Positions 46,096 through 51,562 of a DNA stretch of 64,000 nt are shown in pieces. Location: assembly GCA_024640045.1 (NCBI GenBank), contig JAHEFS010000001.1, positions 38,395-102,394 of the forward strand, written 5' to 3'. This DNA is from Chromatiales bacterium. GTDB lineage: Bacteria; Pseudomonadota; Gammaproteobacteria; Xanthomonadales; SZUA-36. The notes under the pieces are model-generated. The model was not told the origin of the DNA, ran no database searches, and worked only from the letters and a program-made list of their open reading frames with translations. Both the position numbers and the translations under genes were made by a program. Numbering within the stretch: position 1 is the stretch's first letter; each line of letters begins with the position of its first letter.

Positions 46096-47541
46096 CTAGT
46101 GACCCGGTGCCGAGGTTGCGGTGTGAGCCGCGCCGATGGTCGGAATCGGGTCGTTGTAGAAATCGAAGAAGAAATAGAACACCAGGCTGCACACGATCAG
46201 GGTGGCGAGCATGGCTGGTGTTCCGTACCGGAACCAGACCCAGGGGGTGATGGCCAGTGACGGATCGTTTTCGTTCTTCGCCAGGCGCTCGGATATGGTG
46301 ACGATGTACACGTTGGCCGTAGAGCCGATGTGCGTGCCGTTGCCGCCCATGCCGACGCCTACCGCCAAAGCCCACCACAGCGGCGCCACGTGAATGCCCT
46401 GCGCCTCCATCCCCAGCAATATGGGGATCATCGCTGCGGTGAATGGAATGTTGTCGATCGCGGCCGAAAGGATGGCAGCTACCCACATCAGTACCAGGGT
46501 GGCGGTCACGAGGTCTTCCTGCACGAAGGGAATGATGAACTGACCCACCCAGCGCAGAAAGCCGCTGTGCTCCACGCCACCGACCACGATGAACAGTGAG
46601 ATAAAAAAGATCAGCAAGGGAATTTCAACGTCTTCCATTGCGTGGTCCATTTCCACGTGGCGCGCGATGAATACCAGTAACGTGAGGCCGACGGCCGAGA
46701 CCATCCAGGGTTCCCAGCCGATGGAGTGGTGCATCATGAACAGCACGACCATCAGGCCCAGCACGATGATCGACTGATTCCAGAGCTTCTTGTCCTTGTA
46801 CTCGACCTTTTCGTGGAATTCCCCTTGCGGCGTAACCGCCAGTTCCTTGGCGAACAGCACGCGCAACACGAACAGCACCACGATCCACGCCAGCAGAACG
46901 ATGCCGCCCATGTGGATGAAGAAGGTGTTGAAATCAATGCCCTTGGCAGATCCGATCATCAAGTTAGGCGGATCACCCACCAGCGTTGCCACACCGCCGG
47001 TATCGGACAGTAGCGCCGCAGCCAGCAGAAACGGGATGGGTGTGACCTTCATGGCTCGCGCGATGAGAATGATCAGCGGGCCGAAAATGACCACTGTCGT
47101 GACATTGTCGAGCAGCAACGAAAGGCCGGTAACGGCTGAGCCGATCAGGAACAACAGGTAGAATTGTCGCCCTTTGCTGATCCGGGCCATGTAATTGGCC
47201 ATGGCCTGGAACCCCCCGGTGGGGATCATGATCGAGACGATCGCCATCATGCAGCCCAGCAGGAAAACCACGTTCCAGTCCACGGCATCGACGGCCTGGA
47301 AAGAATTGTAGAAACCGTAATACTGACCGGCGACGATCATTAACAGCGCGCCCATCATGGCGAACTTGGCGCGATGGAAGCCATGCAGGGTCTCGGTAAA
47401 AATGCCGACGAAGGTAATCGCCAGAATAACGCCTGAGATGACCATTTCATCGGTTAAGGGCATAGTTTCGACCATTTCGGATAATGCTCCCGGTTTAGTT
47501 ATCAGTTTAGTCCATCCCGGATTTGGGGAGTGGTCCGGCAC
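46096..47541 (-). CDS. NhaD/ArsB-type (SLC13-like) sodium:proton antiporter family protein, copy B
   Basis: Nearly colinear with copy A: IFTETLHGFHRAKFAMMGALLMIVAGQYYGFY..., LSDTGGVATLVGDPPNLMIG, AIDNIPFTAAMIPILLGMEAQG, C-terminus also ...APGH. Confidence 0.85.
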   Translation of the reverse strand: MPDHSPNPGWTKLITKPGALSEMVETMPLTDEMVISGVILAITFVGIFTETLHGFHRAKFAMMGALLMIVAGQYYGFYNSFQAVDAVDWNVVFLLGCMMAIVSIMIPTGGFQAMANYMARISKGRQFYLLFLIGSAVTGLSLLLDNVTTVVIFGPLIILIARAMKVTPIPFLLAAALLSDTGGVATLVGDPPNLMIGSAKGIDFNTFFIHMGGIVLLAWIVVLFVLRVLFAKELAVTPQGEFHEKVEYKDKKLWNQSIIVLGLMVVLFMMHHSIGWEPWMVSAVGLTLLVFIARHVEMDHAMEDVEIPLLIFFISLFIVVGGVEHSGFLRWVGQFIIPFVQEDLVTATLVLMWVAAILSAAIDNIPFTAAMIPILLGMEAQGIHVAPLWWALAVGVGMGGNGTHIGSTANVYIVTISERLAKNENDPSLAITPWVWFRYGTPAMLATLIVCSLVFYFFFDFYNDPIPTIGAAHTATSAPGH

Positions 47542-47653
47542 CAGTCTGTGGGTCCCGGATTATTATGCACAGAACCGGTGGGGACTCAATTCAACAAGGC
47601 GATCGGAGCCAAACAATCGGTGGGGGTGTGCAATTATTAGAAGCCTGAAGTAC

Positions 47654-47687
47654 AATATATCTCTCAATCTTTATAGAAAGATATATT
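47654..47687 (+). promoter_or_regulatory. Overlapping/competing inverted repeats in metK leader (operator or RNA switch candidate)
   Basis: AATATATCT(47654-47662)/AGATATATT(47679-47687) and ATCTTT(47667-47672)-ATAG-AAAGAT(47677-47682); the two pairings share 47679-47682. Confidence 0.55.
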
Positions 47688-47707
47688 AACCCGGAGAACT
47701 ACGCGAA

Positions 47708-48874
47708 ATGAGCGAATACCTGTTTACTTCGGAGTCGGTTGCGGCCGGCCATCCCGACAAGGTTGCAGACCAGATTTCTGATGCCGTCCTCGACGCCATC
47801 ATTGCGCAAGACCCTGCAGCCCACGTGGCATGCGAGACCTTTGTCAAAACCGGTGTGGCCATCGTCGGCGGTGAGATCACGACTTCCGCCTGGGTCGACC
47901 TGGAAGAATTGATCCGGGGCGTGATCTGCGATATCGGCTACACCTCATCGGCGGTTGGCTATGACGGTCACACCTGCGGTGTCATCAACATCATCGGCAA
48001 ACAGTCTCCCGACATTGACCGCGGCGTCAGCCGCGAGCGTCCGGAAGACCAGGGTGCCGGTGACCAGGGGCTGATGTTCGGTTACGCCACCAACGAAACC
48101 GACGTGCTGATGCCCGCACCTATTTACTACGCACATGAACTCATGAAGCGGCAGAACGAAGTGCGTACGGCCACGGATGATGGCCGCCGCCACCTGCGGC
48201 CTGATGCCAAAAGCCAGGTCACGTTCCGTTACCAGGACGGTCGGCCGGCGGGTATCGATGCGGTCGTGCTGTCGACCCAGCACAGCCCGGATTCCACCCA
48301 GGAGCAGTTGCGCGAGTTGGTGATGGAAGAAATCATCAAGCCGATTCTGCCTACGGAGTGGTTGAACGGGAACACCAAGTACCACATCAACCCGACCGGG
48401 CGCTTCGAAATCGGTGGCCCGGTGGGCGACGCTGGTTTGACCGGCCGCAAAATTATCGTCGACACCTACGGCGGTATGGCGCGTCACGGCGGCGGAGCAT
48501 TTTCCGGCAAAGATCCCTCCAAAGTGGACCGTTCAGCAGCATATGCTGCCCGCTACGTGGCCAAGAACCTCGTTGCAGCCGGATTCGCTGACCGAATCGA
48601 AATCCAGGTGAGCTACGCCATCGGGGTAGCGGAGCCGACCTCGATCAGTGTTGACTCTTTCGGCACCGAGAAGATTCCGGTGCGCAAGATCGAACAGATC
48701 GTACGCCAGGAATTCGACCTCAGGCCCTACGGGATTATCCAGATGCTGGACCTGATCCGCCCGATCTATCGTGCGCTGTCGGCCTATGGCCACATGGGCC
48801 GCGAGGACCTGGGCGTCAGCTGGGAGCGCCTGGACCGGGTGGAGTCGTTGAAGGCTGCAGCCGGCCTCGACTGA
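47708..48874 (+). CDS. metK: S-adenosylmethionine synthetase
   Basis: [28 protein letters not shown]...[14 protein letters not shown]...[27 protein letters not shown]. Confidence 0.98.
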
Positions 48875-48886
48875 AACGAATTTCCA

Positions 48887-48969
48887 CGCCCGCCGAGGAG
48901 CGTTGCGACCCGGTCTCCAGATAGACCGGGCCAGGCTCGGTGGGTGGCTCGAATGTAACAACCGCGCTC
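48887..48969 (+). promoter_or_regulatory. S-adenosylhomocysteine (SAH) riboswitch
   Basis: CCGAGGAGCGTTGCGACCCGGTCT..AGACCGGGCCAGGCTCGG...CAACCGCGCTC matches the SAH riboswitch consensus. P1 48887-48897/48936-48946; P2 CCCGGTCT/AGACCGGG 48909-48916/48923-48930; pseudoknot GAGCG 48898-48902 with CGCTC 48965-48969. Immediately upstream of ahcY. Confidence 0.93.
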
Positions 48970-48975
48970 GTTTGA

Positions 48976-50424
48976 ATGACAGGAATGAAAACGATGAGTG
49001 CTGCTATTGAAGATATGAAAAAACACGATTACCACGTTGCCGATATTTCACAGGCGGATTTCGGCCGCCGTGAAATCGCCATCGCCGAAACTGAAATGCC
49101 GGGCCTGATGGATGTTCGCGACGAATTCCGGGGCGCGCAACCTCTGAAAGGTGCGCGCATTGCCGGCAGCCTGCACATGACCATCCAGACTGCAGTTCTG
49201 ATCGAGTCATTGCAGGCACTCGGCGCCGATGTCCGCTGGGCCTCGTGCAACATTTACTCCACCCAGGATCACGCCGCGGCCGCCATCGCGGCAGGCGGCA
49301 CGCCGGTATTCGCATTCAAAGGCGAGAGTCTGGACGAGTACTGGGAGTTCACCCACCGCATATTCGAATGGACCGATGCAAACGGTCAGCAGACCTTTGC
49401 CAATATGATCCTGGACGACGGTGGTGATGCCACCCTGTTGCTGTACCTGGGCGCACAGGCTGAGAAAGACGCCAGTGTGCTGGACAACCCGGGCAGCGAG
49501 GAAGAGGTAGCATTGTTCCGGGCTATCCGTAAGCGGCTGGACACGCGTCCGGGCTGGTATTCCAAGGCGCTCGCAGCCATCCAGGGTGTGACCGAGGAAA
49601 CCACCACTGGTGTCAAGCGGCTATACACGCTGGCCAAGGAAGGTACGCTGCCGTTCCCGGCCATCAACGTCAATGATTCCGTTACCAAGTCGAAGTTCGA
49701 CAACCTTTATGGTTGCCGCGAGTCACTGGTCGATGGCATCAAACGCGCCACCGACGTCATGATTGCAGGCAAGGTCGCGCTGGTGGCCGGTTACGGCGAT
49801 GTGGGTAAAGGGTGTGCTCAATCGCTGCGGGGCCTGGGAGCGACCGTGTGGGTGACCGAGATCGATCCGATCTGCGCTCTGCAGGCGGCGATGGAGGGTT
49901 ACCGCGTAGTGACGCTGGAGGAAGCTGCCGACAAGGTCGATATTTTCGTGACCGCTACCGGTAATTACCACGTGATCGAGCATGACCACATGGCGCGTAT
50001 GAAACACCAGGCCATCGTCTGCAACATCGGCCATTTCGACAACGAAATCGACGTGGCCAGCCTCAAGCAGTACGACTGGGAAAACATCAAGCCGCAGGTC
50101 GATCACATCATCTTTCCTGACGGCAAGCGCATCATCCTGCTGGCCGAAGGCCGCCTGGTGAACCTGGGCTGTGCGACCGGTCACCCGAGCTTCGTGATGT
50201 CCAATTCCTTCACCAACCAGGTGCTGGCGCAGATTGAATTGTTCTGCCACGGCGACCGTTACGAAAATCAGGTCTACGTCCTGCCCAAACACCTGGATGA
50301 GAAGGTGGCCCGTTTGCACCTCGACCGCATCGGGGCGCATCTCACCGACTTGTCGGACCAGCAAGCCAGATACATTGGTGTTGAGGTTTCGGGCCCATAC
50401 AAGCCGGATCACTACCGCTACTGA
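48976..50424 (+). CDS. ahcY: Adenosylhomocysteinase (start may be at 48985 or 48994)
   Basis: [33 protein letters not shown]...[42 protein letters not shown]...[38 protein letters not shown]...KPDHYRY. Confidence 0.98.
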
Positions 50425-50555
50425 GCCGGCGGAGCACGCATGGAACTGGCTGCGGCGGTGAACTTTGCAGGGACGCCGCCGCGGCCCCCTTTCCCACTGG
50501 CTGTCAGAACGGTGGGATTGGATGTTTTTGTCACCATTGAGCGATTGACCCAAAC

Positions 50556-51401
50556 ATGACCCGCGACGGCACCCCCATTTCCTTCGAGTTTTTTCCGCCC
50601 AGGACGCCCGAACAGGAATCCTTGCTGGAAACGACCTGGCGCCGGCTGGTGCGCTTCGACCCCGAGTATTTTTCGATGACGTTCGGGGCCGGAGGATCCA
50701 GTATCGATGCTACCCACCAGGCAGTGTTGAAGCTGTCTTCGGATTCCGGCGTGCAGGTAGCGCCGCACATTTCCTGCCTCATCGACAGTGAGGCCCATTT
50801 GCGCCACTTCCTTGAGGAGTACCGCGCGGCAGGCGTCGACCGCCTGGTGCTGCTGCGGGGAGACCGTCCACCCGGTTCGGTTAATGCGGGCCCGTTCGAG
50901 CACGCCAACGAATTGGTCGGGTTCGTGCACGAACGCTACGGCGAGCAATTCACGATTGAAGTCGGCTGTTATCCGGAGTTTCACCCCGAATCGACATCTC
51001 CCCAAACCGACCTCGCATTCTTCAGGCAGAAAGTGGATGCCGGTGCCAGTGGGGCGATCACGCAGTATTTCTACAATGCCGACAGCTATTACCGCTTCGT
51101 TGAGGATTGTCGGCAGGCCGGGATCAATATCCCGATTCGTCCGGGCATCATGCCGATTACCAACTATCGCCAATTGGCCCGGTTTTCAGCGATCTGCGGT
51201 GCGGAAATTCCGCAGTGGATCATGCGGCGACTGGAAGCCTGGGGCGACGATCTCGAGTCCATCCGTGATTTCGGTCTCGACGTGGTTTCCCGGCTGTGTG
51301 AGCAGTTGCTTCGCGATGGTGCCCCGGGTCTGCACATCTACACGTTGAATCGGGCGCATGCGACCGAAGACTTGCTGGAGCGCCTGTATCCGGGTTCGTG
51401 A
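50556..51401 (+). CDS. metF: 5,10-methylenetetrahydrofolate reductase
   Basis: ISFEFFPPRTPEQESLLETTWRRL...FSMTFGAGGS...VLLRGDRPPG...ITQYFYNADSYYRFVEDCRQAGINIPIRPGIMPI. Confidence 0.96.
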   Translation: MTRDGTPISFEFFPPRTPEQESLLETTWRRLVRFDPEYFSMTFGAGGSSIDATHQAVLKLSSDSGVQVAPHISCLIDSEAHLRHFLEEYRAAGVDRLVLLRGDRPPGSVNAGPFEHANELVGFVHERYGEQFTIEVGCYPEFHPESTSPQTDLAFFRQKVDAGASGAITQYFYNADSYYRFVEDCRQAGINIPIRPGIMPITNYRQLARFSAICGAEIPQWIMRRLEAWGDDLESIRDFGLDVVSRLCEQLLRDGAPGLHIYTLNRAHATEDLLERLYPGS

Positions 51402-51562
51402 GGGAAGGCGTTAGACGTGAGTCGATCGCCCGTGCGTCCGCCTGCCAGGATGGGGTGGTCGAAATCGTTGCCGATCCAGCGTCAAGGTACCTGGCTGCAC
51501 CAACAGCCCACCGAGTACGTCCAATGTGAGAACAAGCGGTGCAATGGGATTCTTTTTCCGGC

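Follow-up and report, generated by a model that had tools for sequence, protein, structure and literature searches.

A complete SAH riboswitch aptamer between metK and ahcY in an uncultured Lysobacterales lineage and its proposed role as a translational switch

A complete SAH riboswitch aptamer lies between metK and ahcY in a 64,000-nt stretch of DNA (the window) from an uncultured Lysobacterales lineage. Folding analysis and comparison with relatives further make it probable that this riboswitch turns on translation of ahcY, and probably of metF as well, from inside a metK-ahcY-metF transcript when SAH accumulates (Table 1). According to the proposed mechanism, in the absence of SAH the strand GCGCUCGUU at 48964–48972 would pair with GAUGAGUGC at 48993–49001 and bury the ahcY start codon, and SAH binding would allow P1 and the pseudoknot to form so that GAGCG at 48898–48902 captures the strand and frees the start codon for translation. 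Expression of metF would probably be switched along by coupling or co-transcription, and transcription of the whole operon would probably be set separately at the metK promoter through binding of a SahR/SamR-type ArsR-methyltransferase regulator.

Table 1. Features of the metK-ahcY-metF region, in window coordinates
Feature	Position	Strand	Remark
TACAAT –10 box	47651–47656	+	abuts palindrome
Palindromic operator-like site ATATCTCTCAATCTTTATAGAAAGATAT, 28 bp	47657–47684	+	metK-ahcY-metF promoter
metK, S-adenosylmethionine synthetase	47708–48874	+	upstream, same putative operon
SAH riboswitch aptamer, RF01057	48889–48976	+	full-length model match
P1 5′ strand	48887–48897	+	pairs with 48936–48946
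Pseudoknot 5′ strand GAGCG	48898–48902	+	pairs with CGCTC 48965–48969; covaries in relatives
P2 hairpin CCCGGTCT-CCAGAT-AGACCGGG	48909–48930	+	strands 48909–48916/48923–48930, 8 pairs
P1 3′ strand	48936–48946	+	pairs with 48887–48897
GCGCUCGUU, proposed switching strand	48964–48972	+	holds pseudoknot 3′ strand (48965–48969); MFE partner 48993–49001
ahcY Shine-Dalgarno (SD) AGGA	48981–48984	+	9 nt before ATG; counterpart CAGGAG in L053
GAUGAGUGC, start-codon segment	48993–49001	+	buried in alternative hairpin of MFE fold
ahcY, S-adenosylhomocysteine hydrolase, 476 aa	48994–50424	+	start corrected from 48976
metF, methylenetetrahydrofolate reductase	50556–51401	+	downstream of ahcY

SAH aptamer and its conserved pairings

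A cmscan search of the entire window against all 4227 Rfam families yielded one match above threshold, to the SAH riboswitch family RF01057 (64.0 bits against a gathering threshold of 37 bits, E 1.8e-9), which covers model positions 1–78 of 78 and is not truncated. This is the sole SAH element genome-wide, its score is the highest within its family, and only five are higher among the matches listed. A pair-by-pair check resolved 11 standard pairs in P1, two of them G-U; P2 contributes 8 standard pairs and the pseudoknot 5, and all stems and conserved segments are intact, including GCCAGGCTCGG. Across 76 SAH elements the pseudoknot columns are paired in 99.7% of cells compared to 29–61% when slid by 1–2 nt, and the two strands covary among the variants GAGCG/CGCTC, GGGCG/CGCCC and AAGCG/CGCTT. 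The original prediction had proposed a complete SAH riboswitch in the metK-ahcY gap, with an 11-bp P1 containing G-U pairs, an 8-bp P2, the conserved segment and the GAGCG/CGCTC pseudoknot, and had named a covariance-model search as the check; the search and the pairings bore out each of these elements. Together, these data confirm the element as an ordinary new instance of the known SAH riboswitch class (Wang et al. 2008, Mol Cell 29:691).

Riboswitches of this class bind SAH with a Kd of about 20 nM and SAM at least 1000-fold more weakly (PMC11188199). The SAM/SAH riboswitch RF01727 likewise binds SAH and acts on translation, and is reported to be an H-type pseudoknot that does not discriminate between SAM and SAH (PMC7367207); the cmscan search against all Rfam families found no match to it in the window. 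Elsewhere in the comparison, one genome carries a second, sub-threshold SAH-like element (G050:C7:41066–41145, locus L026; 35 bits) with no motif-recognised ahcY start after it.

Position within the metK-ahcY-metF cluster

The aptamer sits directly upstream of ahcY with metF beyond it, the encoded proteins match the TIGR00936 equivalog (AhcY, 610 bits) and TIGR00676 (MetF, 311 bits), and the gene order metK-ahcY-metF is constant in this Lysobacterales family. P1 begins 12 nt past the metK stop codon, a gap with no room for a promoter of the riboswitch's own, and a scan of the + strand of 47500–51500 found no sigma-70-like site, a scan that also misses the presumed metK promoter. SAH riboswitches elsewhere in the Xanthomonadales/Lysobacterales and in Burkholderia share the aptamer and the target gene but, unlike the window element, usually have a –10 box just before the aptamer (TATAAT-like or TACAAT in most of the order's other loci and in those of Burkholderia; TGCTACAAT in Burkholderia) and usually no adjacent metK. 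Because the window lacks a –10 box right before the aptamer and leaves no space for one, an intra-operonic position is most likely, which would make the riboswitch a control point inside the metK-ahcY-metF transcript.

The window element agrees with the RF01057 class in its full-length match, its P1/P2/pseudoknot architecture, its conserved segment and its position before ahcY-metF, and departs from it in lying 12 nt behind metK without its own promoter and in having a proposed platform that pairs with the start codon. SAH riboswitches precede ahcY in every genome studied, with ahcY-metF as the core regulon and metK outside SAH riboswitch control (PMC4239095), and the intra-operonic placement is consistent with this published absence of metK control. 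Control of both ahcY and metF had been predicted originally; the aptamer indeed stands directly before ahcY with metF downstream, while control of metF would depend on co-transcription across the 131-nt ahcY-metF gap.

We compared the 21 loci nearest the window by AhcY similarity (L053–L073) and found RF01057 in six (L053, L054, L055, L063, L069 and L070), where the model match starts 10–22 nt after the metK stop codon and the metK-ahcY gap measures 114–130 nt; the gap is 16–55 nt in the nearest loci without the element. On an AhcY tree, presence and absence of the element requires at least five changes on well-supported branches, and one locus without it (L056) nests inside a riboswitch-bearing group. 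Given its wide distribution in the order, where 195 of 299 genomes carry it, the SAH element is more simply read as having been lost repeatedly.

Candidate expression platform at the ahcY start

Three in-frame ATGs occur at the 5′ end of ahcY, at 48976, 48985 and 48994. The original prediction had the pseudoknot ending 6 nt before a start at 48976, which is simply the first ATG of the longest open reading frame and is ruled out by homology and the SD. In the sister locus L053, whose AhcY is 91% identical, the coding sequence starts at the codon corresponding to 48994, and the short L053 leader is without an in-frame ATG and carries CAGGAG in place of the window's AGGA. With ahcY starting at 48994, 24 nt therefore separate the pseudoknot from the start codon.

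In the MFE fold of 48880–49020, the proposed switching strand pairs with the segment containing the AUG, and because the pseudoknot and this start-codon hairpin both need strand 48964–48972, the two are mutually exclusive. A folding program that takes account of neither the pseudoknot nor SAH gave a mean start-codon openness of 0.14, increasing to 0.76 once the pseudoknot strand is blocked, and in this model the SD is not itself sequestered (openness 0.86 without the block and 0.52 with it). The competition energy in the window is 7.2 kcal/mol against a shuffle mean of 3.4, with 2.5% of 200 shuffles as high, and in L053 the start-codon helix extends to 11 bp, despite drift in the stretch between the pairing strands, with a competition energy of 9.7 kcal/mol that none of 200 shuffles attained. 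Strand competition is enriched, not universal, across the 76 loci, which are related and not independent: the shuffle test falls below 0.05 in 21%. A start-codon platform universal to the class is not supported, given this figure and the short pairing in many loci; in L055, L063 and L070 it comprises just 4–5 contiguous pairs. Riboswitch-less ahcY genes frequently open with codons like these (ATGAGTGC, ATGAGCGC), so complementarity at the start codon may partly reflect protein sequence, and for this reason we grade the start-codon hairpin as the likely ahcY expression platform rather than a shown one. Our comparison with the class covers aptamer and gene position.

Gene activation upon SAH binding would fit the alternative start-codon hairpin, and switching on in response to SAH makes sense for an enzyme whose role is to remove it. 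The best reading is an SAH-on translational switch. Translational control had earlier been judged plausible from the adjacency of aptamer and start codon; it remains so on a different basis, an alternative hairpin that pairs the pseudoknot 3′ strand with a start 24 nt away.

It is possible, though unlikely, that a working aptamer is accompanied by a coincidental start-codon hairpin and that the pseudoknot acts otherwise, for example sterically on the SD, which lies 11 nt downstream, or via an SD-sequestering hairpin. Several family members have little or no start-codon pairing, and in the leaders of L047, L032 and L034, from other families of the order, the flank of the pseudoknot strand appears to pair with the SD side; coincidence is harder to reconcile with window and L053 leaders that both exceed their shuffles, and with a helix that is longer in L053 despite the intervening drift. 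Riboswitches in general commonly control transcription, and SAH bound to the same riboswitch could instead act through a terminator/antiterminator or Rho access. Rho control is compatible with the sequence, but no intrinsic-terminator-like site was found in 47500–51500, on which ground transcription attenuation was rejected, and the alternative hairpin lies over the start codon and is not followed by a U-run, making a transcriptional mode of action improbable. We give very little weight to the explanation that this lineage depends on its operon repressor and the element is a remnant, decaying or without function. Its absence from the same metK-ahcY gap in many sister genomes and the state changes on the AhcY tree, suggesting repeated loss, would fit such decay, but the family-best score and the intact stems and conserved segments argue against it.

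Other leaders show pairings of their own. In L047 (CCGGTTA/TAACCGG) and L034 (CCGTT/AACGG), the complementary segments are the flank of the pseudoknot strand and the SD side, and pairings of this type suggest compensatory changes and SD sequestration. Leaders of the Burkholderia group (L074–L090, L102 and L111) have TTTCTAG...AGAAAGGAGGGCGTGATG in common, which could fold into a hairpin covering the SD; the base of this potential hairpin (UCACG/CGUGA) overlaps the sequence flanking the pseudoknot strand.

Operator-like palindromes and proposed layering of control

The nearest relatives, riboswitch-bearing or not, also keep the palindrome of the metK-ahcY-metF promoter in front of metK. A pattern search located it at two places in this genome, metK and an ArsR-methyltransferase-metH operon, where the second copy (G000:C86:4272–4299, locus L138) overlaps the start of an ArsR-type regulator gene encoding HTH_5 and Methyltransf_11 domains, with metH 15 nt downstream. 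All family genomes match the palindrome (39 of 39), mostly at about two places each, and a reversed-pattern control gave 0. The regulator gene (L138:3330–4286, – strand) has its likely ATG where its operator ends (GATATATGACTGCC...), an arrangement that suggests a leaderless or near-leaderless, autoregulated ArsR-methyltransferase transcript.

These sites resemble a compact two-operon regulon of the SahR/SamR type, with SAH or SAM as the putative effector. Published SahR/SamR regulons include metK among their targets and have samR as a neighbour of metH (PMC4239095). The likeness to SahR/SamR regulons extends to an ArsR-family regulator, to sites at metK and at the gene of the regulator itself beside metH, the pattern of Xanthomonas samR, and to a palindrome containing ATC-10 nt-GAT, the part of the motif that the comparison covered (PMC4239095). 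Differences are the 28-bp palindrome, the roughly two sites per genome and the presence of metK, ahcY and metF in one putative operon. We tentatively propose that these layers form an internal valve, in which a single metK-ahcY-metF transcript with a SahR/SamR-type promoter repressor would carry a start-codon-sequestering SAH riboswitch that uncouples SAH removal from SAM synthesis, the riboswitch layer having been repeatedly lost in sister lineages and the repressor layer kept.

These results confirm the known SAH riboswitch class in an uncultured Lysobacterales lineage, and the combination of a mid-operon riboswitch with a repressor-type promoter site is an unusual, modest and testable novelty. 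If the layering holds, the family would constitute a natural experiment in which the same operon and operator occur with and without an internal riboswitch, and could reveal what the riboswitch adds beyond a transcription factor possibly sensing the same metabolite.
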